Positions 16,660 through 55,828 of a DNA stretch of 55,828 bases are shown here, one piece after another. Each line of letters begins with the position of its first letter. Position 1 is the first letter of the stretch. The notes beneath the pieces are model-generated. The model ran no database searches and was not told the DNA's origin. It saw only the letters and a program-made list of their open reading frames with translations. The translations under genes were made by a program, and so were the position numbers. This DNA comes from Bacteroidaceae bacterium (GTDB lineage: Bacteria; Bacteroidota; Bacteroidia; Bacteroidales; Bacteroidaceae): NCBI GenBank assembly GCA_017447625.1, contig JAFSNB010000020.1:1-55828 (forward strand), in the 5' to 3' direction.

Positions 16660-16686
16660 TTGAATTATGAATTATGAATTCTCAAT
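16660..16686. repeat. AATTCATAATTC-type repeat forming the ilvD stop region
   Basis: ATTGAATTATGAATTATGAA and following bases belong to the AATTCATAATTC family. The last two IlvD residues (Asn-Ser) and its TAA are encoded here (AAT TCA TAA), exactly as at the end of rhaB. Confidence 0.65.
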
Positions 16687-18510
16687 TACCCTAACTCCTC
16701 CCTTGTCGGCGCTGGTTACGCTTTGGGCGTAGGCGCGGAGGGCTTTGGAGACGGTACGCTGGCGCTGCAGGGGACGCATCGGGCGGGCTGCTAGCTCAGC
16801 TTCGGTGAGGCGCACGTTGATGGAACGGTTGGGGATGTCGATGTCTATGATGTCGCCGTCGAGGATTTTGCCGATGTTACCGCCACTGGCTGCCTCGGGG
16901 GATATGTGGCCAATGGAGAGGCCGCTGGTGCCGCCGCTGAAGCGTCCGTCGGTGATGAGGGCGCACTCCTTACCCATGTGCATCGATTTGATATACGAGG
17001 TGGGGTAGAGCATTTCCTGCATTCCGGGACCGCCTTTCGGCCCTTCGTGAGTGATGACCACCACGTCGCCTTTCTTCACCCGTCCGCCGAGGATGCCCTC
17101 GCAGGCCTCCTCCTGACTGTCGAATACCACGGCCGGGCCTGAGAACTTCCAGATGCTCTCATCAACGCCTGCGGTCTTCACCACGCAGCCGTCCTGGGCT
17201 ATGTTGCCGAAGAGGACTGCCATGCCGCCATCTTTAGTGTAGGCGTGCTCGATGTCGCGTATGCAGCCGTTTTCGCGGTCGGTGTCGAAACTGTCATAGT
17301 ATGTCTCCTGCACTCCGAGCTGGTTGCAGAAACGGCCGGCAGGGGCAGACAAATAAAGACCCACCCCCAGATCCCTCCCGTCAGGGAGGGGAGAAGGCTG
17401 TGCGCAGGAGTCCTTTTTACTTATAGCATAGTTATTGATGGCCTCTCCTTGTGTCAGCCCGTCCACACGTATTGCGCTCGTGTCGATAAGTCCGCCCTTG
17501 GCCAGCTCGCCCAGCAGGGACAATACGCCGCCGGCACGACCGAACTCCTGAACGCTGTACTTCTGGCCGTTGGGAGCCAGTTTGCAGAGGAACGGAGTCT
17601 TGCGCGAGAGGGCATCGATGTCGCTCATTGTGAAATCGACCTCGGCTTCTTGTGCTATGGCAAGGAGGTGGAGCACGGTGTTCGTGGATGCACCCATGGC
17701 GATGTCCAATGTCATGGCGTTGAGGAAGGCCTGACGGGTGGCTATGCTGCGTGGCAGAACGCTCTCGTCGCCGTCCTCGTAGTAGGCCAGCGCGTTCTTC
17801 ACTATCTGGCGGGCAGCCTGCTGCATCAAGCGGACGCGGTTCACGTGGGTTGCGAGGATTGTGCCGTTGCCGGGCAGCGACATACCGAGGGCCTCTGTGA
17901 GGTTGTTCATGGAATTGGCCGTGAACATACCCGAGCAGCAGCCGCATCCGGGGCAGGCGCGATTCTCCACTTCGGCCAGTTCCTCGTCGGAGACGGTGGG
18001 GTCAGCTCCCTTCACCATGGCGGCGATGAGGTCGAGGTTCTCGCCTTTGTACTTGCCTGCTTCCATAGGTCCGCCGCTGACGAACACGGCAGGGATATTC
18101 AGTCGCATGGCGGCCATCAGCATACCCGGAGTGATCTTGTCGCAGTTGGATATGCATATCATGGCATCTGCCTTGTGTGCATTCACCATATATTCCACGG
18201 AGTCGGCAATGATGTCGCGTGAAGGCAGCGAGTAGAGCATTCCGTCGTGGCCCATGGCTATGCCGTCGTCGATGGCTATGGTGTTGAACTCGGCGGCGTA
18301 ACAGCCGAGACTCTCAATCTCTTTCTTTATGATCTGTCCGGCTTCGTGCAAGTGGGTGTGACCCGGAACAAACTGGGTGAACGAATTAACTATGGCGATG
18401 ATGGGTTTGCCGAATTGCCCCCGTTTCATACCATTTGCCACCCATAGGGCGCGGGCTCCCGCCATGCGGCGGCCTTCGGTGCAGACTGCGCTGCGTAATG
18501 TGTGTTTCAT
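16672..18510 (-). CDS. ilvD: Dihydroxy-acid dehydratase
   Basis: 612 aa from ATG 18510. It dehydrates 2,3-dihydroxy-3-methylbutanoate and the homologous C6 acid in valine and isoleucine synthesis. Iron-sulfur ligands are visible in CDKITPG and [19 protein letters not shown]; the C-terminal swivel domain has [14 protein letters not shown] and [15 protein letters not shown]. Residues about 372-387 ([15 protein letters not shown]) are encoded by an interspersed hairpin repeat and sit just before the conserved SAPAG, where family members have an unrelated, shorter linker. The frame is kept, so the enzyme may still work. It is the last gene of a likely slyD-aroC-cstA-ilvD operon. Confidence 0.95.
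17357..17393. repeat. CCCTCCC-loop-GGGAGGG hairpin repeat inside ilvD
   Basis: AGACCCACCCCCAGATCCCT leads into a hairpin CCCTCCC-GTCA-GGGAGGG. The same AGACCCACCCCC lead and hairpin occur at 30329, 52707 and, inverted, at 52860 and 54380. Here it lies in frame within a coding region. Confidence 0.8.
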
Positions 18511-18514
18511 ATAG

Positions 18515-18542
18515 TTCAATGGTCAATGGTCAATGTTCAATG
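18515..18542. repeat. ATTGACC heptamer repeat at the cstA-ilvD junction
   Basis: On the minus strand ATTGAAC/ATTGACC units run back to back. The last residues of CstA (Ile-Glu-His) and its TGA lie inside them, and the ilvD ATG follows 5 bp later. The same heptamers occur inside rfbB (37314) and xylB (52056). Confidence 0.75.
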
Positions 18543-20017
18543 GAAGAAAACCCCTTCCTGACCTTGTAAAGAAAGCAGATGCCGAGGATAACGGCCAGAA
18601 CGAATCCGGCACAGATGCTGGGTGTTACGGGCAGGCTGAAGCCCTCGGGGGCTGCCAGAATGTAGCTGGTGCAGACCACCGTCATGAAGAGGGCGGGGAG
18701 GAAGGCTATCCAATAGATTCTTTTATTCCTCAGAAGCCAGACGGCGGCTGTCCAGAGGAAACAGGTGGCAAGGGTCTGGTTGAACCAAGCGAAGTAGCGC
18801 CAGAGGATGTCGAAATCGACAAATACCAGAGCTGCAGAAACTGCGAAGAGGGGCAGGGCAAGGAGCAGACGGCTCCCTACCTTCTTCTGTTTCATCTTCA
18901 GGAAATCGGCCACGATGAGGCGGGCTGAGCGGAACGCTGTGTCACCGCTGGTGATGGGGGCTGCCACAACTCCGAGGACGGCAAGGATAGCCCCGATGCG
19001 GCCCATCCAAGTCTGGCAAATCATATTAACGAGGATGGACGGATTAGTCTTTCCGCCGGATGTCATCAGGGCGGCGAGCCCCTCGTATGCCTCGCTGTGT
19101 CCGGCTGTTTCGCTGCCTACAGAAGCGGCCGCGAACTTGATGGCTGCGCCGGCCCAGATCATAGCCACGATGCCCTCGGTAATCATAGCTCCGTAGAAGA
19201 CGAGACGGCCCCGGCGTTCATTCTCCAGACAGCGGGACATCAGCGGCGACTGTGTGGCGTGGAAACCGCTTATGGCTCCGCAGGCGATGGTGATGCAAAG
19301 GAAGGGGAATATGGGCAGACCCTTAGGATGATGCGAGATAAACGGAGCGTCGGTTATCTCGGGCAGCCAGCCGTCGCGTGTCACGATGCCGAGTCCAACG
19401 CCAAGAGCCATTATCAGCAGGGCCGCTCCGAAAATGGGATAGAGGCGCCCGATGAGGGTGTCGATGGGAAGCAGGGTGGCCAGTATGCAATAGAAGAATA
19501 CAAGCCCAATCCAAATCCAACGCCACATGGAGAGATCCATGTTCCAAGCGCCGTCGGTCATGGTAGCCAGAAGGCCTGCAGAGGTTGTCACGAACACCGT
19601 TCCAACCAGAACAAGCAGGATTATGGACAGCACTCGCATAGCCTGACGGGCTACTGTTCCAAGCTCGTTTCCAACCATCTCGGGAAGTGAGGCGCCGTCG
19701 TTGCGCAACGATATCATGCCACAGAGGTAGTCGTGGACTGCCCCCATGAAGATGCAGCCGAAGACAATCCAGAGGTAGGCGGCCGGGCCGAACAGTATTC
19801 CCATGATGGCACCGAAGATTGGCCCGGTTCCGGCGATGTTAAGGAACTGGATGAGATAAACGCGCCACGTAGGCATCGGGATGTAATCCACTCCGTCTGA
19901 AAGGCGGTAGGAGGGAGTGGTGCGATTGGATTCTGCACCGAAGATGCGCTCAACGACTGAACCGTAGAGCAGATAGCCCGCAATGAGCGCAATAATACAA
20001 ATAATAAAAGTTGTCAT
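18530..20017 (-). CDS. cstA: Carbon starvation protein CstA-like transporter (peptide or pyruvate uptake)
   Basis: 495 aa, polytopic with about 13-14 membrane segments. Family motifs include FLNIAGTGPIFGAIMGILFG, then FGCIFMGAVHDYLCGMISLR and GAISGFHATQSPLMSRCLEN. CstA proteins import peptides or pyruvate during carbon limitation; this is the short form common in Bacteroidetes, lacking much of the C-terminal extension of the E. coli protein. Its ATG directly follows the aroC stop with no gap, so it must be read from the aroC message. Its last residues SSIEH and stop are coded by repeat DNA. Confidence 0.9.
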   Translation of the reverse strand: MTTFIICIIALIAGYLLYGSVVERIFGAESNRTTPSYRLSDGVDYIPMPTWRVYLIQFLNIAGTGPIFGAIMGILFGPAAYLWIVFGCIFMGAVHDYLCGMISLRNDGASLPEMVGNELGTVARQAMRVLSIILLVLVGTVFVTTSAGLLATMTDGAWNMDLSMWRWIWIGLVFFYCILATLLPIDTLIGRLYPIFGAALLIMALGVGLGIVTRDGWLPEITDAPFISHHPKGLPIFPFLCITIACGAISGFHATQSPLMSRCLENERRGRLVFYGAMITEGIVAMIWAGAAIKFAAASVGSETAGHSEAYEGLAALMTSGGKTNPSILVNMICQTWMGRIGAILAVLGVVAAPITSGDTAFRSARLIVADFLKMKQKKVGSRLLLALPLFAVSAALVFVDFDILWRYFAWFNQTLATCFLWTAAVWLLRNKRIYWIAFLPALFMTVVCTSYILAAPEGFSLPVTPSICAGFVLAVILGICFLYKVRKGFSSIEH

Positions 20018-20055
20018 TTATAATTTACTATTTGACGATTTACAATTTACGATTT
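20018..20055. repeat. AATTTAC/GATTTAC-type repeat forming the aroC tail
   Basis: The plus strand reads TTATAATTTACTATTTGACG followed by ATTTACAATTTACGATTT, a degenerate 9-10-bp repeat. It encodes the terminal residues [12 protein letters not shown] and the stop of AroC, which do not look like a conserved part of the enzyme. Confidence 0.6.
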
Positions 20056-21130
20056 GGGCTGCGCAGAGCCAGGCATCAAGGATGGTGATGGCGGCCATAG
20101 CTTCAACGATAGGTACGGCACGAGGCAGGACACAGGGGTCGTGGCGGCCACGCGGGTTGATCGTCACAGCTCTGCCGTGAATGTCAACGGTCTCTTGTGG
20201 ACGAAGCAATGTTGCCACGGGCTTGAACGCCACGCGGAAGGGAATCGGCGCGCCGTTGCTTATCCCGCCCTGAATGCCGCCAGAGTGATTGGAACAAAAT
20301 TCAAGGCCCCTCTCTGACTCCCCCCGTGGGGGGGAGGATGGCCTGTCGTTTACCTCGCTGCCACGTTTTTCAGTCATAGCAAATCCGTCGCCGTACTCAA
20401 ATCCCTTGACGGCGTTGATACTTAGCATAGCTGAACCGAGTTGGGCATGGAGTTTGCCAAAGACAGGTTCACCGAGACCTGCGGGGCAGCCCTCGATGAC
20501 TCCGGCTATGACTCCGCCAATAGTGTCGCCGTCGGCCTTCACCTCCATGATGAGCTCTTCCATGCGGCGTGCTGCATCGGGGGCGGGGCAGCGCACATCG
20601 TTGGTCTCAATGAGAGTGAGGTCGAGGCGCGTCCAGTCGCGTTCGCAGGCGATGTTTCCGACCTGCTGGGTCCAGGCTGTTATGCGTATGCCTATCTTAC
20701 GAAGTACGAGTTTGGCCAACGCTCCCGCAACAACGCGGGCTATGGTCTCGCGTGCCGATGAACGTCCGCCTCCGCGATGGTCGCGGATGCCGTACTTCAT
20801 GAAATAAGTGTAGTCGGCGTGGGAAGGGCGGAAGACATCGCGCAAGTCATCATAGTCCGTAGAGTGCTGGTTTTCGTTACGAACGATGAATCCGATTGGT
20901 GTACCTGTGCTTTTCCCCTCGAATATACCAGAGAGGAACTCCACCTGGTCGCTCTCCTTGCGGGCGGTGGTGAGCCGACTCTGCCCGGGTTTGCGGCGTG
21001 CAAGCTCGGACTGAATGAAATCCACGTCTATGTCAATGCCAGGCGGCATACCGTCAACAACGCCTCCGATGGCGGCTCCGTGGCTCTCGCCGAAGGAGGT
21101 GAGACGGAAGAGAGTTCCGAAAGTATTCAT
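20018..21130 (-). CDS. aroC: Chorismate synthase
   Basis: 370 aa. It converts 5-enolpyruvylshikimate-3-phosphate to chorismate with reduced FMN. Signatures: [15 protein letters not shown] near the N-terminus, [29 protein letters not shown], and [12 protein letters not shown]. Residues about 265-277 ([13 protein letters not shown]) are encoded by a CTCCCCCC-type repeat and lie between RGSEVND and the [10 protein letters not shown] motif, in the flexible flavin-site loop; the frame is kept. The C-terminal 12 residues come from another repeat. It lies 30 bp after slyD and abuts cstA. Confidence 0.95.
20304..20337. repeat. CTCCCCCC-ACGGGGGG repeat inside aroC
   Basis: The minus strand reads CTCCCCCCCACGGGGGGAG, then TCAGAGAGGGGCC. 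The plus strand at 54846-54876 reads the same CTCCCCCCCACGGGGGGAG, then CTGGAGAGGGGCT. This is a second hairpin-forming repeat family, here in frame in a gene. Confidence 0.75.
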
Positions 21131-21160
21131 CCAATGAATAATGTTTTGGGTTTATTGGGC

Positions 21161-21718
21161 TTAACAGCCGCATTTGCCACCACCACAGCCGCCTCCGCAA
21201 CCGCTCTCGCAGTTGCCGTCACAGCTGCCGCAGCCACAACTGGCCTCGCGCAGAGCTTCTCTGATTTCTTCAGGAGTGGCTTCGCGGTTTTCCAGAACGC
21301 GACCGATGAAACGGAGCTCCTTGCCAGCGAGCGGGTTGTTCAGGTCAACGGTAACGGTGGTGGGCGTTATCTGGGCGACTGTTCCGGGGAAGTGCTGCCC
21401 CTCTTCGTTCATCAGAGGCACAACGGCTCCCTCGTAGATGTGCTTGTCATCGAATTTACCGTCGATCTCGAAGGCCGAGCGCGGCAGTTCCTGTACGAGC
21501 TCTTGCAGGTGAGGACCGTAGGCTTCATCAACAGAGAGTGTGAAGTCAAACGAATGTCCTTTTTCCACAGGAACGATATGCGCCTCGAAAGAGTCGAGCG
21601 TAAGCCCCAGTTCGGAGATAAACATAAAAGGGTGCTGGTCGGTGGCTTCCTCGACCATTTCGCCCTCTGATGCCCAGTCGGTATAGAGGCGATATGCCAC
21701 AGTGATGTATTTATTCAT
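21161..21718 (-). CDS. slyD: FKBP-type peptidyl-prolyl isomerase, SlyD-like
   Basis: 185 aa from ATG 21718 (MNKYITVAYRLYT); upstream in-frame codons belong to the leader. FKBP/insert-in-flap architecture: FMFISELGLTLDSFEAHI, DFTLSVDEAYGPH, NNPLAGKELRFIGRVL. The C-terminus is a Gly/Cys-rich tail (CGCGSCDGNCESGCGG and onward, ten cysteines), like the metal-binding tail of SlyD, which uses histidines as well; here only cysteines are seen. Proline isomerase and chaperone activity with nickel or zinc binding is the family role. It heads the slyD-aroC-cstA-ilvD group. Confidence 0.88.
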   Translation of the reverse strand: MNKYITVAYRLYTDWASEGEMVEEATDQHPFMFISELGLTLDSFEAHIVPVEKGHSFDFTLSVDEAYGPHLQELVQELPRSAFEIDGKFDDKHIYEGAVVPLMNEEGQHFPGTVAQITPTTVTVDLNNPLAGKELRFIGRVLENREATPEEIREALREASCGCGSCDGNCESGCGGGCGGGKCGC

Positions 21719-21748
21719 ATTGATAATATAAGATTCGTTTTGCGGCTG

Positions 21749-21756
21749 CAAAGGTA
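21749..21756 (-). promoter_or_regulatory. Bacteroidetes -7 promoter element of slyD
   Basis: The minus strand reads GCCTACCTTTGCAGCC (TACCTTTG), 31 bp upstream of the slyD ATG. Probably the main promoter for the four-gene group. Confidence 0.7.
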
Positions 21757-21782
21757 GGCAAAAATATTGGTAAAGTGGCGTT

Positions 21783-28449: not shown

Positions 28450-28451
28450 TC

Positions 28452-28549: not shown

Positions 28550-31500
28550 GTGGATTGCATTCATATACATAAGGCGCGGGTCAACAACCTGAAGAATGTC
28601 ACCGTGGATATTCCACGGGATAAGTTGGTGGTGATTACCGGACTCAGCGGTTCGGGTAAGTCGTCGTTGGCCTTTGACACCCTTTATGCCGAGGGACAGC
28701 GCCGTTATGTGGAGAGCTTGAACGCTTATGCACGCCAGTTTCTCGGGCGAATGAGCAAGCCTGAATGTGACTATATCAGTGGTATTCCGCCCGCCATTGC
28801 CATTGAACAGAAAGTGATTTCGCGCAACCCGCGTAGCACCGTCGGGACCAGCACGGAGATTTATGAATACCTGCGTCTGCTCTATGCCCGCATCGGACAT
28901 ACCTTCAGTCCGGTGAGCGGCGAGGAGGTCCGCAAACACACCACGGAAGATGTCGTGCGAACCGTCCTGACTTATTCGCCCGGCACTCGCTTCCTGGTCC
29001 TTTCTCCCGTCCGGATTCATGAGGGACGAACCCTCGAAGAACAGCTCCGCGCCTATCTGCAAGAGGGCTACACCCGCATCGAAATCAACGGGGAGGTCAC
29101 CCGCATCGAGGATGTTCTCGGCTCGAACACGGCCGCCGCCCCCTCTTCTACCGCCACTGTGCCCGACGGTTCTCCGTCGGGTTCCCCCTTGGCCGCCCCC
29201 GCTGCAAGCATCCGCCTCCTCATCGACCGCCTTTCTGTCCCCGAACAATCTCCGGAGGCCGCTCCCTCCCCGCTTATCTCCCGTCTCACCGACTCCGCCG
29301 AGACCGCCTTCTACGAGGGTGGGGGAGAAATGATGCTTAAATTTATGCCTGCCGGCATTGAACATGTCTTCTCCACTCGTTTTGAGGCGGATGGCATCAC
29401 CTTCGAAGAACCGAGCGACCAGCTCTTTGCCTTCAATTCGCCCATCGGGGCCTGTCCCACGTGTGGCGGATGGGGAAACACCACAGGCATCGACCCTCAT
29501 CTCGTTATCCCCGACACATCCAAAAGTGTATATGAAGGTTGCGTGCAGTGCTGGAGAGGCGAAAAACTGAGCGAGTGGAAGACAGAATTCATCCGTCAGG
29601 CCGAGCGCCTCAACTTCCCGATATTCACTCCTTATTTCGAACTGACCCAAGAGCAGAAGAATACCCTGTGGCACGGAAAACATCCGGAGCTTGGACTTGA
29701 TGAACGGTGGGAGCGTGGTGACGTCTGCATAGACCTCTTCTTTGATTATTTGGCTGAGGCCCGCTATAAGATTCAGAACCGTGTGATGTTGGCCCGATAT
29801 ACGGGCAAAGCTGAATGTCCGACCTGTCATGGCACTCGCCTGCGTCGCGAAGCCACATACGTCAAGATTGCCGGGCGAGCCATCACGGACCTCATTGATA
29901 TGCCCGTGAACGAACTGAGTCGCTGGGTCAAATCTCTGTGGGATGTCCTTTCCGAACATGAGCTTCAGGTCGCAAAGCGTTTGCTCACGGAGATAGAGAA
30001 CCGCCTTCAGTACCTCGTAGATGTGGGACTTGGATACCTTACGCTTGGTCGCCGTTCAAACAGTCTCAGCGGCGGTGAGAGTCAGCGCGTAAACCTCGCC
30101 ACCAGTCTCGGTTCGTCGCTCGTGGGTTCGTTGTATATCCTTGATGAGCCGAGTATCGGTCTGCATCCGCGCGACACCGCCCGTCTCATCGGAGTTCTGC
30201 GCCAGCTTGTCGATTTGGGAAACACAGTCGTGGTCGTTGAACACGACGAGGAAATCATCCGTGCCGCCGACTACATTATTGATATGGGTCCTGAAGCCGG
30301 ACGGCTTGGAGGAGAAGTGGTGATGGAAAGACCCACCCCCCTGCCCCTCCCTTGTAGGGAGGGGAGTAGTAACCTAAGCAGTAGTGACTTCCCCGAAGAA
30401 ACGATATGCCGCTCCCACACCCTCCAGTGGTTACTTGGTTTAGATATAGATACTCCCAAAGATTGCGATGGCAAAATACAGCCTGCTAACAGTAATTACT
30501 CCACGCCCTACAAGGGAGGGGCAGGTGGGAGGGTCCCCGGTGTGAGGGTCTCCAATCGCTCCATCCTTGTTCGCAGCGCACGTGCCAACAACCTGCGAGG
30601 CATTGATGTGCGCTTCCCCCTGAATGTGATGACATGTGTCACGGGCGTGAGCGGTAGCGGAAAGAGCTCTTTGGTTCGTGACATCCTCTACTGCGCCATG
30701 AAGCGCCAACTCGATGAGGTGGCTGACCGCCCGGGAGAGTTTGGCGGACTGGAAGGCGATTTGGATGCCATCAAAGCTGTGGAGTTCGTGGATCAGAACC
30801 CGATAGGCAAGAGTTCGCGCTCCAATCCTGTTATTTACGTCAAGGCATACGACGAGATTCGCCGCCTCTTTGCCGAGCAGCAGCTTTCTAAGCAGCTGGG
30901 CTTTACAGCCGGCCACTTCTCGTTCAACACCGACGGAGGACGCTGTGAGGAGTGCAAGGGCGAGGGTACCGTAACCGTAGAGATGCAGTTCATGGCTGAC
31001 TTGGTGCTGGAGTGCGAGAGTTGCCACGGCCTGCGCTTCAAGCCCGAAATTCTCGAGGTGCGCTTCGAAGGCAAGAACATAAACGACGTGCTTAACATGA
31101 CGGTAAATCAGGCTATAGAATTCTTCTCCGAACACAAGCAGAAGCGTATTGTCAGCCGGTTGAAGCCGTTGCAGGACGTCGGTCTTGGCTATATCAAACT
31201 CGGGCAGTCATCTTCCACCCTCTCCGGTGGTGAGAGCCAGCGCGTGAAACTGGCCTATTACATCGGCTCAGAGAAGCAGGTGCCCACACTCTTCATTTTC
31301 GACGAACCGACAACCGGCCTTCACTACCACGACATCCGCCGCCTGCTCGCTTCCTTCAATGCCCTCATCGAGCGCGGACACACCATCGTAGTCATCGAGC
31401 ACAATCTGGATGTTATCAAAATGGCTGATTATATCATCGACCTCGGTCCTGAGGGAGGAGCTGCTGGCGGAAATATCGTCGTAACGGGAACTCCAGAGCA

Positions 31501-31558
31501 GGTTGCAGCCTGTGCAGAGAGCCATACGGGGCGCTTTTTGCGCGAAAAAATGAAATAA
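28550..31558 (+). CDS. uvrA: Excinuclease ABC subunit A
   Basis: 1002 aa, longer than the usual roughly 940. The likely start is GTG 28550 ([16 protein letters not shown]); the nearby ATG 28537 is out of frame. Two ABC modules: Walker [10 protein letters not shown] near residue 32 and GVSGSGKSS near 700; signatures [10 protein letters not shown] and [10 protein letters not shown]; the second zinc finger has CEEC and CESC. UvrA recognises bulky DNA damage with UvrB. Two inserts explain the length: a Pro/Ala/Ser-rich stretch (about 190-235) and residues about 594-664 in the linker between the modules, which carries two inverted copies of an interspersed repeat. The frame is kept throughout. Confidence 0.95.
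29162..29181. repeat. Perfect hairpin inside uvrA
   Basis: CCCGACGG-TTCT-CCGTCGGG is a perfect 8-bp stem within the low-complexity insert of UvrA ([10 protein letters not shown]). It looks like an inserted palindromic unit, but no second copy was found in the window. Confidence 0.5.
30329..30366. repeat. CCCTCCC-loop-GGGAGGG hairpin repeat inside uvrA, copy 1
   Basis: AGACCCACCCCCCTGCCCCT is followed by the hairpin CCCTCCC-TTGTA-GGGAGGG. It encodes [13 protein letters not shown] in the interdomain linker. Copy 2 is inverted, 140 bp downstream. Confidence 0.8.
30506..30535. repeat. Inverted copy of the hairpin repeat inside uvrA, copy 2
   Basis: CCCTACAAGGGAGGGGCAGG and the following TGGGAGGGTC form the reverse complement of copy 1 at 30329, with about 20 identical bases. 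Together they bracket a segment that contains the linker motif SHTLQWLLG. Either two separate insertions, or one element with inverted ends. Confidence 0.75.
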
Positions 31559-32410: not shown

Positions 32411-35050
32411 TTATTCTTCCTGAATCAGGTGTACATCGCATTGCGGGAAGGCGAAGGTTATGCCGGCAGCGGTGAGGGCGTCGTAGATAACCTCCTTGGC
32501 CCGTTCCACATAGGCGATGCGCTCTGCCACAAGCACGTACTGCTTCACATCGATTTCCACAGAGCTGTCTTTCATGTCGCCGACTACGACATTGAAGCCG
32601 TAATTGGGATCCACGATCTCGCGGCCGTAATGGTCCTTAGTGCGCATCTTCTGCATAGCCTCATTCAGCACTTCGCGTACCTGTTTCACTTCTGTGCCGT
32701 AAGCCACACCTACAGGTATTGTTGTCAATTCATACGAGTTGTTGCGGGTGAGGTTGTTGAAGTTCTTGCCGAAGAGTGACGCATTGAGGAACGACATCTC
32801 AGTACCTTCTATAGTTTCTATCTGTACACATTGGTAGTTGATGGAACTCACCTTACCGCGAACGCCGTCACACTCTATCCAGTCGCCAACCCTCAGACGT
32901 CCTCCCATCAGCTGTATGCCATAAATCAGGTTGTTGATGACGTCCTTCAGCGCAAGACCGATACCTGCCGACAGACCTCCAGCTATCAGACCCAGCGAAC
33001 CTGTAGGTATCTTCCACGTAATGATGACCACGGCGGCATAACCCATCCACAGCAGAACACTTATTATACTGTTGCCCAAAGAGAGGTTAATCTCGTTGGC
33101 ACGTATGTTATTGCGGTGGTGCTTGCGCATGAAAGCCTTATATGAGAGATGTTGCCAGATTGTGTGTATTGCCTGGTTGCAGTAGCGCAGCACATAGAAC
33201 AGGATGATCAGGCGGATGATGCTGTTGACAGAGATGCATAGTGTCGCAATGCCGTCCTTGTCGAACAGTTGTACGAACGGGTCGTAGTAGAACTTGTAGA
33301 ACAGGGTGTCAAAGTCGAAGATGTCCAACGACAGACTGATACACCACGGCAGCGACAGCAGCACAGCCGGAATTGCCATCTGCTTCATTAGCTCGTAGAA
33401 CCAGGTGGTGCCGAAAAGCAGCGACTCCCTGTCATCGCCCGTCACGTATGTGATGCGGTTGCGAGCAGCTTCCACGCGCTTGTCGAGCCAACGGGCCTTG
33501 TAGCGGTTCAACAGATCGAAGATGCAGAATATCGTCAGCAGAGCGGCCAACTGGAAATACCACCACACCATAATGAGCAGAGCCACGAAGGTGTAGCCGC
33601 TGAACGATGCTATTAAGGCAATAACATAGATGGCCAGCGAGATCCACCCCAACGTGCTGTCTATCTGATCGGCCTTGCGGTTGTACCTGATGCTGAAGAA
33701 CAGCTGCCATATTATGGCCACCAGCAGAATGGGCGGGAGCAAGAATACCAGCATCTTGTCGGGGATAAAGATGATTCGGCAAGAGATGATAAACAACGCC
33801 AGCATAAATGAGGCTGAGTAGAGCTGCAAGCCGTGACGTATCTTGTCTGGCACCCTGAGCAGCAGGGAACCGAGAATGACAATTAGCAGCCAGAGCAGAG
33901 TGTTGATGTGTCTGACACCCGTCATAGCCATCTCGTCACCATTCCAGAAAAAGCCATAGATGAAGAAGTAGAGCACCGTGCCTATCAGTAGGGCATATAC
34001 CATCAGCAGCCTTATGGCAAAACGCTTCTTAAACTTGGTGAAGCGGGCTATCAGCCGATTCAGAATCCAGATAAACACGAATGAGGCAAGCCAAAAACAT
34101 GACAGCAGGAACAGCTGAACGATACAAAAAACCAACAGAACAGCCTTCTCGCCGTGATTAGACAGTTGGCCTGATAATATACTCTCGTCCGTTTGCTCTT
34201 CTTCAGGTGTCTCATCATCTTTAATGCTGTCGGACAGTTCTTTTAAATCGTACTGACTACGCATGTCAGCCTTAGCCTTCTCCCAGTAGGAACCTGGATT
34301 GGCCAGGATGTCCATATAAGGCGTCTGGCCATCTACGAAGATGTAATTCTGCAGCTTCTGGTAACGTAACTGAGTGTAGTCGTAGGCTTCCTTCAGTCGC
34401 AAGTATGACTCCTGGTAGTGCATGCTGTCAGCTACCACAGTAGCGTGGTTCGCGACATGCATCTTCAGCAGTTCAGAGGCTAAGAATATACATGTGTCGC
34501 GCAACATCAGGCCCTCTTCGTCAAGTAAGTAGGAGAGCCCCGCCGTGTCAGTCGCCTCAATGTTGATGACCTCGTGTTCATGCGCAAGACCTATGACCTC
34601 GTGATCATGAGATGCCGAGTCGGTCTCGTTGTGCTGGTAGTTAGGATCGTTATGCAGCAACGCCTCAATCAGTCGGCCGTATCGGTCGATGTTTGTGTGC
34701 AGCCCCTCAACTATGCGGTCGTACGGGTGTCTGTCCTGGCTGAAATCGTTGTACTTGGCCGTCACCTTCTGCAGGGCGTAGGCCAGATCGAACGTCATCT
34801 CTTCCTCCTGCGTATAAAGCATCAGAGATATCTCGTTCGACTCTCTGACGATGTCCAGCATCCGCTGTCGCTGCAGCTCATAATCCTCGTTGAAACGTTT
34901 TTGCGTCTCCTCACGCTGTTGGTATGCCGTTTGCAACTCAACCCGAAGGTCCTTAAGCGTATTCGTCAACGCCCGTTTGCTCACGACAGCCCGTAGCGGA
35001 ATCGCACATACACAGAGCACCACGGCCAGTGCCAGCAGTTTCCTTTTCAT
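32411..35050 (-). CDS. Large MscS-family mechanosensitive channel
   Basis: 879 aa. Signal sequence 1-21, then a periplasmic helical part to about residue 280 (LRVELQTAYQQREETQKRFN and similar), about ten membrane segments, and a C-terminal MscS pore and beta domain (AAVVIITWKIPTGSLGLIAG, then LKDVINNLIYGIQLMGGRLR, VGDWIECDGVRGKVSSINYQ). This is the MscK/YbdG-like large type, which opens on osmotic down-shock to release solutes. It is transcribed alone from the TACCTTTG promoter at 35152-35159. Confidence 0.92.
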   Translation of the reverse strand: MKRKLLALAVVLCVCAIPLRAVVSKRALTNTLKDLRVELQTAYQQREETQKRFNEDYELQRQRMLDIVRESNEISLMLYTQEEEMTFDLAYALQKVTAKYNDFSQDRHPYDRIVEGLHTNIDRYGRLIEALLHNDPNYQHNETDSASHDHEVIGLAHEHEVINIEATDTAGLSYLLDEEGLMLRDTCIFLASELLKMHVANHATVVADSMHYQESYLRLKEAYDYTQLRYQKLQNYIFVDGQTPYMDILANPGSYWEKAKADMRSQYDLKELSDSIKDDETPEEEQTDESILSGQLSNHGEKAVLLVFCIVQLFLLSCFWLASFVFIWILNRLIARFTKFKKRFAIRLLMVYALLIGTVLYFFIYGFFWNGDEMAMTGVRHINTLLWLLIVILGSLLLRVPDKIRHGLQLYSASFMLALFIISCRIIFIPDKMLVFLLPPILLVAIIWQLFFSIRYNRKADQIDSTLGWISLAIYVIALIASFSGYTFVALLIMVWWYFQLAALLTIFCIFDLLNRYKARWLDKRVEAARNRITYVTGDDRESLLFGTTWFYELMKQMAIPAVLLSLPWCISLSLDIFDFDTLFYKFYYDPFVQLFDKDGIATLCISVNSIIRLIILFYVLRYCNQAIHTIWQHLSYKAFMRKHHRNNIRANEINLSLGNSIISVLLWMGYAAVVIITWKIPTGSLGLIAGGLSAGIGLALKDVINNLIYGIQLMGGRLRVGDWIECDGVRGKVSSINYQCVQIETIEGTEMSFLNASLFGKNFNNLTRNNSYELTTIPVGVAYGTEVKQVREVLNEAMQKMRTKDHYGREIVDPNYGFNVVVGDMKDSSVEIDVKQYVLVAERIAYVERAKEVIYDALTAAGITFAFPQCDVHLIQEE

Positions 35051-35159: not shown

Positions 35160-35381
35160 ATCTTTTTAATTCAAAATACTTAATTCCTAATTCATTATTT
35201 TTATTTTTCCCCTTTTTTCCGTAGCTTTTTGCCACAATCGGGCAAAAGTTACGCCTCGTAGCCGCCTAAAACCCACTTGGGTTGCTCCCTTACTGACATA
35301 AGACCTGCGATGCATTTCCACAAGGCTCATCACACGTTAGACCAAGGCTAAACAATCGCTTCCTGTAGGGTTCTTCGTCGT

Positions 35382-35532
35382 GAGACGGCTGTGTCACGAA
35401 TCTGAGACGGCCGTCTCAGATTCAGGTGACGGCTGTCTCACGTTCATGATACGGCTGTCTCAGATTCAGGTGACGGCTGTCTCAGATTCAGGTGACGGCT
35501 GTCTCAGATTCAGGTGACGGCCGTCTCAGATT
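35382..35532. repeat. Array of seven palindromic 21-24-bp units
   Basis: Units with the core GACGG(C/T)(C/T)GTCTCA followed by GATTCAGGT repeat head to tail at 35382, 35404, 35428, 35451, 35472, 35494 and 35516. Two adjacent 22-bp units (35472, 35494) are identical. 35398-35423 is a perfect 26-bp palindrome centred on GACGGCCGTC. No spacers separate the units and 22 bp is not a codon multiple, so it is neither a CRISPR array nor a coding repeat. The rest of 35160-35742 holds only T/C-rich simple sequence. Confidence 0.85.
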
Positions 35533-35742
35533 AAACAAGCCTTAGCGGATATGTAAGTTTATCCTGTGAGAAAGGGTCGTTGGCCAGCATAGATTAGTCT
35601 CTAAGTCCTTTCCACCTCATCGTAGAGACGGCGATTTTGCCTCCTCTAATCATTTTTTCTTTATTTTTTCTCTTATATCTTCTTCTCTTTTAATATTTAT
35701 TTCTACTATTGCACCCAGATATCAATACAAGAAGATATAATA

Positions 35743-49812: not shown

Positions 49813-49836
49813 GTCTAATAATTATTAATTGCGGTG

Positions 49837-49885: not shown

Positions 49886-49909
49886 CACCACAATCGCTAT
49901 TATTCTCTT

Positions 49910-50872: not shown

Positions 50873-50876
50873 AAAG

Positions 50877-50950
50877 TCCTTTTAACTTCCAAGAGAGCGA
50901 AGCGAACGATAAATCCTTTTAACTTCCAAGCGAAGCGATAACTTCCAAAA
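50877..50950. repeat. TCCTTTTAACTTCCAAG direct repeat
   Basis: The 17-mer TCCTTTTAACTTCCAAG occurs at 50877-50893 and 50914-50930, each followed by GCGAAGCGA-type sequence, with a partial third copy AACTTCCAAA. It begins 5 bp after the dehydrogenase stop. Confidence 0.65.
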
Positions 50951-50977
50951 CTAAAATTATTAATAAATTCTGTTGTT

Positions 50978-51118
50978 TTTGTTCTCCTTATTCAAATAAT
51001 GTGTATATTTGCGGCTGATAACCTAAAAGAGCAGTCAATTTAAGACGATAATGAGACATCAGTCATAGTTTTTGTGACATATATTAATAATATAAGTACA
51101 AGAAAAGCAGTACCTTTG
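50978..51118 (+). promoter_or_regulatory. Two tandem Bacteroidetes promoters before xylB
   Basis: TTTG (50978) with TATATTTG (51004-51011), and TACCTTTG (51111-51118) 61 bp before the xylB ATG. Both are followed by CGG. Two start sites would allow separate control of the xylose genes. Confidence 0.6.
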
Positions 51119-51178
51119 CGGTCGCATTTCAAATGTTAAGGACAAAAAGGAAGTTAAATCATAAACAAAAGCAAAGTA

Positions 51179-52699
51179 ATGTATTTACTCGGTTACGACA
51201 TTGGCTCATCAAGCGTGAAGGCATCGTTGGTAGATGCCCAGAAAGGCAATTGTGTGGCTACAGCCTTCTATCCCAAGAGCGAGGCTCCCATCAAGGCAGT
51301 CCGCGCGGGGTGGGCAGAGCAAGACCCGAACGCATGGTGGGAATACCTCAAGGCAGCTACGGCTGACATCATGGCTCAGAGCGGAGCAGACAAAGCCGAC
51401 GTGAAGGCCATCGGCATAAGCTATCAGATGCACGGCCTCGTCTGTGTGGACAAGGACCTGAAGCCCCTGCGCGACGCCATCATCTGGTGCGACTCACGCG
51501 CCGTTCCTTACGGTCAGAAGGCTTTCCAGGCTCTCGGCAACGAGAAGTGTCTCTCGCATCTGCTCAATTCTCCCGGCAACTTCACAGCCTCCAAACTGGC
51601 TTGGGTGCGCGAGAATGAGCCTGAGCTCTTCTCCAAGATTTACAAGATTATGCTGCCGGGCGACTATATCGCCTGCCGCCTCTCCGGCACTCCCGCCACC
51701 ACCGTCAGCGGCCTCTCAGAGGGCATTATGTGGGATTTCAAAGAGAACAGCCCAGCTCAGTTCCTGCTCGACTACTACGGAATCCCTGCCGACCTCCTTG
51801 CAGACATCGTTCCTACCTTCGGCCTCCAGGGTGAGGTCAGCGCAGCAGCTGCCGCAGAACTCGGTCTCGCTGCCGGCACACCCATAACCTACCGCGCAGG
51901 CGACCAGCCCAACAACGCCCTCTCACTTAATGTGTTCGAGCCGGGTGAGGCTGCAACCACAGCCGGTACCTCAGGCGTTGTTTATGGCGTGCTCGGACAG
52001 GTCGCATACGACCCGCAAAGCCGCGTGAACACCTTCGCCCACGTGAACCACCAACCAATGGTCAATGGTCAATGGTCAATGGTCAATGGTCAATGTTCAA
52101 TGGTCAATGGTGCAACTCGCCTCGGTGTTCTGCTTTGCATCAACGGCACAGGCATCCTCAACTCATGGATGCACCGCAACGTGGCTCCATCACTCTCATA
52201 CGCAGAGATGAACGACCTCGCAGCTCAGGCACCCATCGGTTCCGCAGGTCTCAGCATACTGCCGTTCGGCAACGGTGCCGAGCGCGTGCTCTGTGACAAA
52301 GAGGTGGGAGCCAGCATACACGGCATCAACTTCAACACCCACACTCAGGCACATCTGCTCCGTGCAGCCCAGGAGGGCATCGTCTTCTCCTTCGCCTACG
52401 GTATGGAGGTGATGAAGCAGATGGGTATGGATCTCAAGACCATCCGCGCAGGCAAGGCCAATATGTTCCTCAGCCCCATCTTCCGCGATACTCTGGCTGG
52501 CGTTACAGGTGCCACCATCGAGCTCTGCGACACCGACGGCAGCGTCGGAGCAGCACGCGGAGCCGGTATCGGAGCAGGCATCTACGCAGACCACAACGAG
52601 GCCTTCGCCGCTCTGCAGAAGCTTCAGGTCATCGAGCCTGTGGCCGCAGACCAGGCCGCTTACCGCGAGGCCTACGAGCGCTGGTTGACATTCCTCTAA
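51179..52699 (+). CDS. xylB: Xylulokinase
   Basis: 506 aa, FGGY kinase: GYDIGSSSVKASLVDA at the N-terminus, GISYQMHGLVCVD, ATP-site TTAGTSGVVYGVLG. It phosphorylates D-xylulose. Residues about 293-311 ([18 protein letters not shown], a 7-residue peptide repeat) are encoded by eight CAATGGT heptamers placed between FAHVNH and TRLGVLLCINGTGI; these two motifs are normally joined by a few residues. The frame is kept. xylA follows 205 bp downstream, after repeats. Confidence 0.95.
   Translation: MYLLGYDIGSSSVKASLVDAQKGNCVATAFYPKSEAPIKAVRAGWAEQDPNAWWEYLKAATADIMAQSGADKADVKAIGISYQMHGLVCVDKDLKPLRDAIIWCDSRAVPYGQKAFQALGNEKCLSHLLNSPGNFTASKLAWVRENEPELFSKIYKIMLPGDYIACRLSGTPATTVSGLSEGIMWDFKENSPAQFLLDYYGIPADLLADIVPTFGLQGEVSAAAAAELGLAAGTPITYRAGDQPNNALSLNVFEPGEAATTAGTSGVVYGVLGQVAYDPQSRVNTFAHVNHQPMVNGQWSMVNGQCSMVNGATRLGVLLCINGTGILNSWMHRNVAPSLSYAEMNDLAAQAPIGSAGLSILPFGNGAERVLCDKEVGASIHGINFNTHTQAHLLRAAQEGIVFSFAYGMEVMKQMGMDLKTIRAGKANMFLSPIFRDTLAGVTGATIELCDTDGSVGAARGAGIGAGIYADHNEAFAALQKLQVIEPVAADQAAYREAYERWLTFL
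52056..52111. repeat. Eight-unit CAATGGT heptamer array inside xylB
   Basis: Eight exact-length units (one is CAATGTT). Because 3 x 7 nt equals 7 codons, the array encodes a perfect heptapeptide period [14 protein letters not shown]. Confidence 0.9.
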
Positions 52700-52706
52700 G
52701 CCCTAC

Positions 52707-52742
52707 AGACCCACCCCCAACCCCTCCCGTGAGGGAGGGGAG
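52707..52742. repeat. CCCTCCC-loop-GGGAGGG hairpin repeat after xylB
   Basis: AGACCCACCCCCAACCCCTC and the hairpin CCCTCCC-GTGA-GGGAGGG begin 7 bp after the xylB stop. The copy at 52860-52897 is its inverse, so the two could pair over about 36 bp and enclose the gap before xylA. Confidence 0.8.
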
Positions 52743-52812
52743 AGAGGTTACTTCCAAGGGTGGTTGCCTTTAAGATATTTCTTTTTAATTTATTATAAAC
52801 ATTTAACCCATT

Positions 52813-52897
52813 AAAGAATGACCCTAACAGCCCTCTCATAGCGTGCCCCAAAGCGCAGCCACCCCCTCCCTAACGGGAGGGGTATGGGGGTGGGTCT
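52813..52897. repeat. 85-bp repeat directly upstream of xylA
   Basis: It starts AAAGAATGACCCTAACAGCC, contains AGCGCAGCCACCCC, and ends with the inverted hairpin CCCTCCC-TAAC-GGGAGGG and GGGGGTGGGTCT followed by T residues. A same-orientation copy lies at 54333-54418, so xylA is bracketed. It ends 7 bp before the xylA ATG and would form a stable structure in the leader, or act as a terminator or attenuator. Confidence 0.8.
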
Positions 52898-52904
52898 TTT
52901 TATT

Positions 52905-54212
52905 ATGAAAGAGTATTTCCCTTCAATCTCCGCCATCAAGTTCGAGGGCGTTGAGAGCAAGAACCCAATGGCTTACCGCTACTACGACAAGGATCGTGTC
53001 GTTATGGGTAAGAAGATGAGCGAATGGTTCAAGTTCGCTATGGCTTGGTGGCACACCCTCTGTGCAGAAGGTGCTGACCAGTTCGGCAGCGGCACAAAGT
53101 CTTTCCCCTGGAACACAGCTGCTGACCCCGTTCAGGCTGCTAAGGAGAAGGCTGACGCTGGCTTCGAAATCATGCAGAAGCTCGGCATCGAGTATTATTG
53201 CTTCCACGATGTTGACCTCGTTGCTGAGGCTGCCGATGTGGAGACCTACGAGAAGAACCTCAAGGAGGTCGTTGCTTACCTGAAGCAGAAGCAGGCCGAG
53301 ACCGGCATCAAGCTCCTCTGGGGCACAGCCAACGTGTTCGGTAACAAGCGTTACATGAACGGCGCCAGCACCAACCCCGACTTCGACGTTGTTGCACGTG
53401 CCATCGTTCAGATCAAGAACGCCATCGACGCTACCATAGAGCTCGGCGGTACCAACTACGTGTTCTGGGGCGGCCGCGAAGGTTATATGTCCCTGCTGAA
53501 CACCGACATGAAGCGTGAGAAAGAGCACATGGCCACCATGCTCACTATGGCTCGCGACTACGCTCGCAGCAAGGGCTTCAAGGGCACCTTCCTCATCGAG
53601 CCCAAGCCCATGGAGCCCAGCAAGCACCAGTATGACGTTGACACCGAGACCGTCATTGGCTTCCTGAAAGCTCACAACCTCGACAAGGACTTCAAGGTGA
53701 ACATCGAGGTGAACCACGCCACTCTCGCAGGTCACACCTTCGAACACGAGCTCGCTTGCGCCGTTGACGCCGGTATGCTCGGCAGCATCGATGCCAACCG
53801 CGGTGACTACCAGAACGGCTGGGATACAGACCAGTTCCCCATCGACCACTACGAGCTGACTCAGGCCATGATGCAGATCATCCGTGGCGGCGGCTTCAAG
53901 GACGGCGGCACCAACTTCGATGCCAAGACCCGTCGTAACAGCACCGACCTCGAGGATATCTTCATCGCCCACATCGCTGCTATGGATGCTATGGCCCACG
54001 CCCTGCTCTCCGCAGCAGACATCATCGAGAACTCTCCCCTCTGCGCAATGGTTAAGGAGCGTTACGCAAGCTTCGACCAAGGCGAGGGCAAGAAGTTCGA
54101 AGAGGGCAAGATGACTCTCGAAGAGGCTTACGCTTACGGCAAGAAGGTCGGCGAACCCAAGCAGACCAGCGGCAAGCAGGAACTCTACGAAGCAATCGTG
54201 AACATGTATTAA
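52905..54212 (+). CDS. xylA: Xylose isomerase
   Basis: 435 aa from ATG 52905 ([20 protein letters not shown]); in-frame codons upstream lie within the repeat. Catalytic and metal sites: [10 protein letters not shown] (His and Asp), [36 protein letters not shown] and [20 protein letters not shown]. It converts D-xylose to D-xylulose, which XylB then phosphorylates. Codon use is highly biased, as for a strongly expressed gene. A clear terminator follows. Confidence 0.97.
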
Positions 54213-54235
54213 TAGGTACATCAACCTTATGTGCA

Positions 54236-54268
54236 AACCCCGCAGTCAAAACGGCTGCGGGGTTTTTT
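54236..54268 (+). terminator. Intrinsic terminator of xylA
   Basis: AACCCCGCAG (54236-54245) and CTGCGGGGTT (54255-54264) form a perfect 10-bp stem followed by TTTT. Textbook form, 24 bp past the stop. Confidence 0.92.
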
Positions 54269-54289
54269 ACATACAAAAACATATGTCTT

Positions 54290-54331
54290 CTACCTTCTTT
54301 TATCTTCTTTTATCTTCCTTTATCTTCCTAT
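54290..54331. repeat. CTTCTTTTAT decamer repeat
   Basis: Three to four units of CTTCTTTTAT/CTTCCTTTAT run head to tail immediately before the second 85-bp repeat. Confidence 0.6.
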
Positions 54332-54332
54332 A

Positions 54333-54418
54333 AAAGAATGACCCTATAAGCCCTTGCATATCGCGTACAATGCGCAGCCACCCCCCCTCCCTCACGGGAG
54401 GGGCAGGGGGGTGGGTCT
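54333..54418. repeat. Second copy of the 85-bp repeat, downstream of xylA
   Basis: AAAGAATGACCCTATAAGCC, then GCGCAGCCACCCCCCCTCCC, loop CA, and GGGAGGGGCAGGGGGGTGGG then TCT. Same strand as 52813-52897 and similar along its whole length, with scattered substitutions and small indels. Confidence 0.8.
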
Positions 54419-54629
54419 AAAAAGGTGGCGGACATCACTGCCAGCCACCTTCCGAGCAATCAATCACTTAAAATACAGGTTCTTCATGTGCATTTAAGGT
54501 CTGTTGTATTCATATTTTGCGGTTGTTATGGTATTAGTGTTTGTGTCTTTGTTGTTATGTGTGTTTTGGTATTGTGTCTTGTGTGTTATGGTTTTTTGTC
54601 GTTTGTGTTGTGGTAGTTCTTTTCTTTTG
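54417..54629 (-). ncRNA. Candidate small RNA (about 210 nt)
   Basis: On the minus strand a promoter-like CACCTTTG (54643-54636, one base off TAnnTTTG) precedes a C/A-rich, almost G-free stretch. It ends in the hairpin AAGGTGGC (54451-54444) / GCCACCTT (54429-54422) followed by TTTTT (54423-54419), a good intrinsic terminator. No open reading frame of note lies within. The extents are estimates from these signals; no known RNA family is recognised. Confidence 0.4.
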
Positions 54630-54809
54630 ACGATGCAAAGGTGCAATGATATTTTCACCCAACAGCGGGGCTTTCCCCTATTTAGTCAGGGAAAATCCCT
54701 ATAACCGCAAAAAAGTGGCGTTTTTGCTTTTTTTCGCCACTTTTTTATCGCTTTTCTCCTTCTCATTTTTTCGCCTTCGCTTGGGCAATTCGTCTCTTTT
54801 ATTTTTAAT

Positions 54810-54876
54810 CTCCCCCCCACGGGTTCTCTCCCCCCCACGGGTTCTCTCCCCCCCACGGGGGGAGCTGGAGAGGGGC
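54810..54876. repeat. CTCCCCCCCACGGG repeat, three tandem arms
   Basis: CTCCCCCCCACGGGTTCT occurs at 54810 and 54828; a third unit at 54846 continues as CTCCCCCCCACGGGGGGAG, closing the hairpin, then GAGAGGGGCTT. The same element, reversed, lies inside aroC (20304-20337). The muramidase gene's stop is 4 bp further on. Confidence 0.8.
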
Positions 54877-54879
54877 TTC

Positions 54880-55587
54880 CTACAGATTGTGCCTCTGTAT
54901 ATGTTCGATGTAGTCCACACGCTTTAGGAGGCCGCGGTGGAATTTCTCGTTTATGGTGCCGCGCTCAACGCAGCGGTTGATGAAGTCGCGGCGGAGTTGG
55001 CAAATCATGTTCACGGCCTGAGTCTCTGCGTTGCATTGCCGCACAACCTTCTGTATGGCGGTGAGAGTCTCACGACCGACGATACCGTCTTCCGCAATGT
55101 GGATTAGTTCGACACGATGCACACCGTCCTCACCTTCACGTTTTGTCTGATAGGCGCGGGTGATTTCGTTTATCTCGTTCAGGACGGATTGGAGATACTT
55201 GGCGGCTCGCTTGACGCCGCTATTGAAACCGAAGTCCGCAACGGCGAGGGCAAGATGCGGACGGCCGTAATACTGGTCGCATCCGAGGGCTTTCCAGTAG
55301 AGAACCTTAACGACTTCCACCCAAGTGTGGAAGGAGAGGTTCTGCAGGTCTTCCTTTGTGAACGTTGTGCTCGGGCCGAGTACGCGGTGCGCCCAGTCGT
55401 TGTATGTGGTGAGGGTTATGCCGCAGAAGGTCGCGCCTCCGTTGTCGTCGGGATCGTCGGAGTACATCCGCTCGCGGTTGTCCTCAAACTGCTCCATGAG
55501 GGACTTGTTCTCGGAGAGCTTCACGCCTCCTTCGAGCCGAATAAGAACACGAAGGAACGGCGTTATATCAATTGGAGATTTTTTCAT
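54880..55587 (-). CDS. GH108-type muramidase/peptidoglycan-binding protein
   Basis: 235 aa. N-terminal GH108 (secretion-activator/phage muramidase) features: LIRLEGG with the likely catalytic Glu at about 19, DPDDNGGATFCGITLTTYND, YWKALGCDQ, LALAVADFGFNSGVKRA. A C-terminal peptidoglycan-binding region (EDGIVGRETLTAIQKV, RRDFINRCV, FHRGLLKRVDYI) follows. About 22 residues (VKLSENKSLMEQFEDNRERM) are inserted between EGG and DPDD compared with the usual motif. No signal peptide is seen, as in phage-derived enzymes. It may be a prophage remnant or a domesticated lysin. Confidence 0.85.
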   Translation of the reverse strand: MKKSPIDITPFLRVLIRLEGGVKLSENKSLMEQFEDNRERMYSDDPDDNGGATFCGITLTTYNDWAHRVLGPSTTFTKEDLQNLSFHTWVEVVKVLYWKALGCDQYYGRPHLALAVADFGFNSGVKRAAKYLQSVLNEINEITRAYQTKREGEDGVHRVELIHIAEDGIVGRETLTAIQKVVRQCNAETQAVNMICQLRRDFINRCVERGTINEKFHRGLLKRVDYIEHIQRHNL

Positions 55588-55600
55588 AATGGGAATCGGA

Positions 55601-55631
55601 CTCTCCCCCCGCCCTCCCTAAAGGGAGGGAG
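55601..55631. repeat. CCCTCCC-loop-GGGAGGG hairpin before the muramidase gene
   Basis: CTCTCCCCCCGCCCTCCCTA then AAGGGAGGGA: the hairpin CCCTCCC-TAAA-GGGAGGG lies about 25 bp upstream of the minus-strand start at 55587. Confidence 0.7.
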
Positions 55632-55828
55632 CGAAATGAGGAAGAGGATGTTTTTTAAGGGTTAATAATTCGTTATTTTAGAGTTATTTATAGGGTCGGC
55701 CTATCGGCCTCAAAATTGTAAGAAAATCAAATCAGAAAATTATAAGGCCTACGGCCCGAAATACCAATATATGCCAATTTTGGAGCGAAGCGACTGAAAT
55801 TTTCTAAATCAATTTTTCTATAATTTTA
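55632..55828. other. AT-rich gene-free end of window
   Basis: No gene is seen. GGGTCGGCCTATCGGCCTC and AAGGCCTACGGCCCG are related GC islands. The A/T-rich arms about 55712-55744 and 55796-55828 are loosely inverse to each other, so a further repeat element may be cut by the window edge. Confidence 0.4.

Follow-up and report, generated by a model that had tools for sequence, protein, structure and literature searches.

The window analysed here, a stretch of 55,828 nucleotides from a Bacteroidaceae bacterium (contig C9 of a 46-contig, 2.56 Mb assembly with a completeness rating of 73%), carries a family of short palindromic repeats in which a lead sequence runs into a hairpin with the arms CCCTCCC and GGGAGGG. 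One copy lies within ilvD and two within uvrA, and in both genes the reading frame continues uninterrupted across the repeats (Table 1). A first-pass annotation, made from the letters alone, had placed these three copies in frame within conserved enzymes, and this was borne out: both open reading frames (ORFs) are intact, that of ilvD matches the NCBIfam family for dihydroxy-acid dehydratase, and that of uvrA scores over the cut-off of TIGR00630 and under that of NF001503. As relatives vary at these positions and the best PDB alignments leave the region unaligned (IlvD residues 362-426 against 6NTE 354-373; UvrA residues 594-667 against 3PIH 553-585), the insertion sites are linkers, as had been proposed. 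What the letters of the window could not reveal is the likely source of the repeats, namely a mobile element encoding an endonuclease of the DUF559 family.

Table 1. Repeats and repeat-bearing genes in the window
Feature	Position	Strand	Context or basis
ilvD, dihydroxy-acid dehydratase, with a repeat in a variable linker	16672..18519	-	ORF, NCBIfam, PDB alignment, relatives
Palindromic repeat: lead AGACCCACCCCC, hairpin, tail GGCTGTGC	17357..17403	+	in frame within ilvD
aroC, chorismate synthase, with a palindrome-encoded stretch	20018..21130	-	ends of the stretch not aligned to relatives
Palindrome CTCCCCCC-GTG-GGGGGGAG	20306..20337	+	in frame in aroC
uvrA, with inserts in the linker joining the two ATPase halves	28550..31558	+	ORF, NCBIfam, PDB alignment, relatives
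Palindromic repeat, first uvrA insert	30329..30373	+	in frame
Palindromic repeat, inverted and degenerate, second uvrA insert	30492..30536	-	in frame
Complete non-autonomous element (putative), two outward-facing lead and hairpin ends	52707..52897	.	gap between xylulokinase-like stop and xylA start
Half element (putative): one hairpin end and an internal part 81% alike to 52807-52843	54327..54418	-
Second copy of the CTCCCCCC palindrome family	54846..54876	-	intergenic
Copy of the sister subfamily with lead GACTCTCCCCCC	55599..55629	+	67 lead and arm matches genome-wide

Seven hairpins sharing a single lead had been listed for the window. Six are exact CCCTCCC-N-GGGAGGG hairpins (at 17373, 30345, 52722, 52864, 54385 and 55612), against none in 100 dinucleotide shuffles; the seventh, given as an inverted copy at 30506, is recognisable as a repeat (30492-30535 is 86% complementary to 30330-30373) but its own hairpin is degenerate. 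The lead AGACCCACCCCC is likewise exact at five copies, on the plus strand at 17357, 30329 and 52707 and on the minus strand at 52886-52897 and 54407-54418, whereas the copy at 55601 has the different lead GACTCTCCCCCC and is a member of a sister subfamily. Extending the search to the whole genome, as the first-pass annotation had advised, returned 157 exact hairpins and not one occurrence of a reversed-pattern control. Lead and arm together match 96 times for the GACCCAC type and 67 times for the GACTCTC type, the latter being the subfamily with the GACTCTCCCCCC lead. Across the genome the hairpins occur singly or as pairs (131-251 bp). Where context was available, 40 of 132 copies fall inside long ORFs by a mechanical test that may count some wrong-frame ORFs, and in 111 of 143 copies of lead plus hairpin five or six of the six frames are free of stop codons.

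The two copies in uvrA surround a native segment that is present in relatives, so that they constitute two inserts, and a single paired element at this position was rejected for the same reason. Among the 29 of 30 same-genus loci that were readable, the UvrA linker, 85 residues long in the window, measures 43-50 residues in nine relatives, one of which (G068) bears an insert. A loose test detects a GC hairpin in this linker in 11 of the 29, three of which (G010, G016 and G017) look like chance; the inserts of G015, G017 and G041 appear decayed, and those of G068 and G045 resemble PTPLPLPREGG and have the loop GA, as do the palindromes around DUF559 in G068. A second UvrA paralogue in the window genome (L125; G000 C43) holds four palindrome inserts in one gene. 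The IlvD linker is 58 residues long in the window and 48 residues in 12 of 30 relatives; two of the 30 have a GC hairpin there, and G054 has its own, different palindrome. Because this linker varies among relatives, the exact ends of the ilvD insert are undefined, and no clean empty site was obtained for it. The first-pass annotation had reasoned that if distant orthologues had the same inserts without nucleotide similarity to the repeat, these would be ordinary linkers. In this simple form the refutation did not come about, the linker being shorter in many relatives, though several carry decayed or different inserts at the same places.

Similar inserts are found in other genes. A second palindrome family, CTCCCCCC-GTG-GGGGGGAG with the lead GGCCCCTCTCTGA, overlooked in the first-pass annotation, lies in frame in the chorismate synthase gene aroC. 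Ten further repeat-bearing genes of the genome were each compared with one to three relatives, and in four of them (dapF, purM, topB and gltB) an insert here contrasts with a shorter linker in one or more of the relatives. PurM is 21 residues shorter in G018 and 6 residues shorter in G059, and in G003 it has an insert at this place that another palindrome encodes; the TopB linker is shorter in all three relatives; the DapF insert is absent from G003 and present also in G018; and the GltB insert is absent from G059 and G003, with a decayed version in G018. For the remaining six (rsgA, dnaG, priA, a P-type ATPase, mfd and carAB) the comparison yielded no clear gain at the repeat, since other, often longer, linkers stand there in the relatives, palindrome-like ones among them for dnaG in G003 and G018 and for carAB in G018. 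In-frame inserts of the kind known from Rickettsia palindromic elements (RPEs) thus occur in ilvD, uvrA, aroC, purM, topB, dapF and gltB, and the original suggestion of a small, RPE-like mobile element that adds peptides to proteins is supported by the four genes that are shorter in relatives and by the genome-wide repeat within the inserts.

NCBIfam supports the identities of DapF, RsgA, TopB and DnaG, and also those of the second UvrA with its four inserts, PriA, the heavy-metal ATPase, CarA and CarB in one frame, and PBP4, some of the latter group through one of several models. PurM, at 113.9 bits against a cut-off of 236, remains below, as do GltB, Mfd, MetH, LeuB and xylulokinase, several of which are partial ORFs; L021, which we take to be glycogen synthase-like, has no NCBIfam match. 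In the window genome carA and carB form one open frame (L140; G000 C22) whose joint is a palindrome pair; in G018, too, the frame is single but its palindrome-like joint differs, and the joint of G003 is of another repeat type. In three different proteins (L090, L100 and L123) palindromes stand directly ahead of a C-terminal YDLSGR-like segment.

One repeat is located directly 5' of a DUF559 gene. The window genome has three such genes, and in each the domain is flanked on either side by GC hairpins no more than 100 bp away: that on contig C23 has hairpins with the loop GTGA and GACCC leads and is the sole one of the CCCTCCC type, that on C27 stands between two genes (presumably GNAT-like and argininosuccinate synthase-like), and that on C21 is in frame at the end of IspG, flanked by palindromes of the same type as the one in aroC. 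Their best named matches come from assemblies of Bacteroidaceae, Prevotellaceae and Bacteroidales, several of which bear isolate names of the rumen type. The hairpin-flanked arrangement recurs among named Bacteroidota. In a set of 80 DUF559 loci, 79 of which were used (one with a short flank was left out), GC hairpins lie on both sides in 58, compared with 5 of 300 control windows; the median inverted-repeat score of the flanks is 32 against 12 in controls, and 71 of the 79 exceed the 95% control level. Left and right loops are identical in 33 of 59 elements but in just 114 of 3422 mismatched pairings, and DUF559 identity correlates with palindrome similarity (Mantel rho 0.41, a value reached in none of 2000 permutations). 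Across 73 same-genus genomes, in which DUF559 and Y1_Tnp genes were counted from matches of about 60 bits or more and weaker fragments were left out, the number of palindromes rises with that of DUF559 genes (rho 0.60, medians 30 and 2), with a partial correlation of 0.48 when size and completeness are controlled, and with r 0.49 (p 0.006) in 29 phylogenetic contrasts from a 30-genome tree.

The gene and its hairpins behave as a unit. At four loci (L221, L255, L261 and L265) DUF559 genes that are 82-89% identical, with the same palindrome type, have unrelated outer left flanks: similar units of about 490 bp stand in unrelated contexts, and homology stops at the repeat. An alignment of five copies from four contexts (L221 and L241 share one) breaks off at GAGTC at all five right ends and at GACTC at four left ends, and several element copies start, as judged by eye, just past a stop codon. 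Gene-less counterparts are frequent, with 29 facing inverted pairs of 131-251 bp in the stretches fetched from the window genome (28 loci, L120 twice), each extending from GACYC to GRGTC; the dapF case (L025) among them encloses native sequence. One pair of 159 bp, on contig C6, encodes MDHRTASPDRYKLL and a stop, corresponding to DUF559 codons 1-14, and then continues into the right tail of an L259-like DUF559 element; this single pair is an internal deletion derivative, of the sort that relates a miniature inverted-repeat transposable element (MITE) to its parent. In the leucyl-tRNA synthetase (LeuRS) gene at L269, a gene-less insert and a DUF559 unit occur together and have nearly identical peptide ends. 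Pairs of the GACTCTCC type often couple one TGCCCCTCCC end with one GCCCTCCC end (for example C25:68351/68497 and C39:40545/40692), as might be expected if the left end of the element differed from its right end.

Entire DUF559 units are also found within host proteins. The DUF559 motif was located in 92 of 112 loci scanned, and 17 of these 92 have a long in-frame extension. Hidden Markov models place the domain between two parts of UvrA (L244), RecG (L280, Tamlana nanhaiensis), LeuRS (L269), a GH31 protein (L222), DegT (L231) and an ABC protein (L266), and C-terminal to IspG (L037); in further cases the host was identified by NCBIfam and the position of DUF559 by its motif (LeuRS at L047, WecB at L246, guanylate kinase at L056 and L059, PurD at L254 and a partial LeuB at L220). 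The UvrA of L244 is interrupted in the same linker as that of the window. No intron or intein domain was found among the Pfam matches of seven DUF559-interrupted proteins. Beyond the Bacteroidota, 35 plasmid records match DUF559, and the 12 that were fetched, from three other phyla (Alpha- and Gammaproteobacteria, Cyanobacteria and Deinococcus), all have a hairpin no farther than 300 bp away on one side or both, a figure without a control rate; five have C/G-run hairpins on both sides, and six have inverted-repeat scores clearly over local controls. Among 50,697 phage records, 11 match. The DUF559 profile matches the structures 3HRL (E 1e-28) and 3R3P, a 'Mobile intron protein' that we take to be I-Bth0305I (E 9e-8), as well as the PADLOC 'homing endonuclease' (5.6e-6), and besides the Pfam DUF559 match there is a weaker one to a restriction-enzyme family under its cut-off. 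With invariant residues D59, E70, D72, H76 and D85 in 14 aligned sequences, conserved acidic and histidine positions among them, the predicted nuclease is homologous to EDxHD/Vsr enzymes.

Taken together, these observations make it probable that the repeats are non-autonomous derivatives, comparable to MITEs or to REPINs (paired repetitive extragenic palindromic sequences, REPs), of mobile elements that encode DUF559. Each repeat would be either an end of an element some 0.5 kb long or a copy of such an element that has lost its interior. In its full form the element would comprise a lead (GACCCACCCCC, GACTCTCCCCCC or a relative), a GC hairpin, one short gene for a putative Vsr/EDxHD-type endonuclease of the DUF559 family, and the same hairpin and lead in inverted orientation. 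We infer that DUF559 is the mobiliser, how insertion proceeds and that the inserts are translated: the endonuclease may recognise or cut hairpin ends or the target, whereupon repair would copy the unit or its derivatives into new sites without target duplication. The element ends seldom contain stop codons, so in-frame insertions into permissive linkers could survive as extra peptides (in ilvD, uvrA, aroC, purM, topB, dapF and others), and would later decay into ordinary-looking linkers. The broader proposition, that a DUF559 gene between GC-hairpin ends constitutes a new and widespread class of minimal mobile element, moving itself and gene-less palindromes and inserting in frame into essential enzymes, whose chains would then include the nuclease or the palindrome peptide, is one that we believe a little more readily than we doubt.

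One rival reading takes the repeats for REPs or REPINs moved by REP-associated tyrosine (RAYT, or Y1) transposases, as in enterics and pseudomonads; these share the many copies and inverted palindrome pairs seen here, and intragenic REPs have been described (PMC3733652). RAYT-type genes of at least 60 bits are present in 10 of the 73 same-genus genomes; however, Y1_Tnp was not found in the window genome (73% complete), palindrome number does not follow Y1_Tnp across the 73 (rho -0.02), and seven of 12 same-genus Y1 loci have palindromes of the CCCAGGGC/CCTGGGGC or CCAGCC type, with no CCCTCCC/GGGAGGG hairpin in the 300 bp around any of the 12 (upstream of L329 lies a CTCCCCC hairpin). GC hairpins lie on both sides in 7 of 21 Y1 loci examined. 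With no such gene found in its own genome, no correlation and other palindromes at the Y1 loci, an origin by RAYT was rejected as very improbable. The same-genus Y1 genes L077, L324, L326, L329, L331 and L333 have palindromes of their own (CCCAGGGC..., CCAGCCAT...), as a separate REP system. Less improbable, though still unlikely, is another mover (host repair, template switching or a different transposase), with DUF559 a passenger or a homing gene that lands in existing palindromes. Such a gene would suit a nuclease related to a homing enzyme and the existence of palindrome-rich genomes that lack DUF559; it would also suit sites seen in several states, such as a UvrA linker that some genomes fill with palindromes only and another with a DUF559 unit, or an IspG with a palindrome-like remnant and no DUF559 in G059, nothing in G018 and DUF559 in G003. 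This reading is nevertheless hard to square with palindromes and gene that are shared as one unit across unrelated contexts, with the tendency of left and right ends of an element to match, or with a deletion derivative that retains the start of DUF559. Finally, ordinary intergenic hairpins (terminators or mRNA stabilisers), combined with low-complexity linkers alike in composition, might be suspected from the 92 of 132 copies that are not in long ORFs and from elements that start right past stop codons; we give this scarcely any credence, given the complete lack of the reversed pattern beside 157 exact copies, the defined ends with shared leads and loops, the in-frame gains in 4 of 10 genes and a window without any Rfam family.

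Several observations weigh against a DUF559-encoding element as the source. At the loci themselves, a mere two of the 79 inverted-repeat scores top the control maximum of 47, a hairpin went undetected on one or both sides in 21 of the 79, and in a second set (28 of 32 loci used, four cut by contig ends being left out) it is missing on a side in 11 of 28. At L255 the immediate left end is degenerate, with a gene-less pair next to it, and it is the left end of this outer pair that was entered for the locus in the palindrome comparison. Among the gene-less pairs, just 12 of 56 tails exceed the shuffled 95% level in comparison with known DUF559 tails (2.8 expected), and DUF559 codons were detected in one pair alone. 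In uvrA and dapF native sequence lies between two inverted copies, an arrangement that one paired insertion would not produce, and no target duplication was seen by eye in the five aligned copies and the listed pairs. Of the 40 genomes with ten or more palindromes, 8 lack DUF559 (G017 has 123 palindromes), a class of genome that the favoured reading leaves unexplained, and 10 of the 33 with fewer do have it. A Caulobacter DUF559 protein is described as resembling Vsr and as being responsible for the SOS response of methylase-lacking cells (PMC12907096); DUF559 therefore need not be a mobiliser.

The proposed DUF559 element recalls four known systems and differs from each. As in RPEs, palindromes lie in frame in conserved protein genes and would add peptides; here they have outward leads, form REPIN-like pairs and are tied to a DUF559-coding element. 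We know of no mobiliser for RPEs. Their in-frame fusions are treated in PMC10969869, and the 2013 account of intragenic REPs, uvrA included, in other bacteria (PMC3733652) means that protein-coding palindromes are not unique to Rickettsia. As in the REP/REPIN and RAYT system (REPtron), hairpins flank a small nuclease gene and are scattered singly and as inverted pairs, but the gene is of the Vsr/EDxHD type and not a Y1 HuH transposase, and the repeat tag is GACCC/GACTC, not GTAG. As with MITEs, short, internally deleted, gene-less copies share terminal inverted ends with a parent, which here encodes a putative homing-type endonuclease and no known transposase, with no target duplication seen. 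To EDxHD homing endonuclease genes the likeness is in the nuclease sequence and in insertion within conserved genes; the differences are the many different sites, the hairpin ends, the gene-less derivatives and the lack of intron or intein domains in the seven proteins, and the differing contexts of related DUF559 units speak only against spread limited to one site. In the open-access literature that could be searched, subscription papers lying outside it, no description of DUF559 mobility or of DUF559-linked palindromes was found, and the novelty of the element is provisional.

The genome contains other repeats besides. Heptamer-type repeats (AATTATG..., GTCAATG...) occur in the window at 10308, 18515, 24754, 28511, 37312, 46738 and 52062 and are also in frame in carA (L140) and dacB (L034) of the same genome, with peptides such as VNYELCIENYEL and CSMFNVQCSM; they are a second kind of in-frame repeat in this genome. 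A tandem array of the 22-bp unit GACGGCTGTCTCAGATTCAGGT at 35362-35554 stands beside a minus-strand ORF at 32411-35050.

With DUF559, another type of palindrome gains a candidate enzyme, encoded within the element and present in several phyla, which makes the question of its movement testable. If the proposal holds, some families of palindromic repeats now without a mobiliser would gain one, and DUF559, a family of 'unknown function', would gain a role. The proposal would account for repeated insertion in the same linkers of UvrA, DnaG, PurM and CarAB, and would provide an annotation rule for peptides like PTPLPLPREG or PSLTGGAGGGS. The origin of some new linkers and fusions among core proteins would also be explained, as in the DUF559 domains within UvrA, RecG and LeuRS and in the palindrome-joined CarA and CarB.

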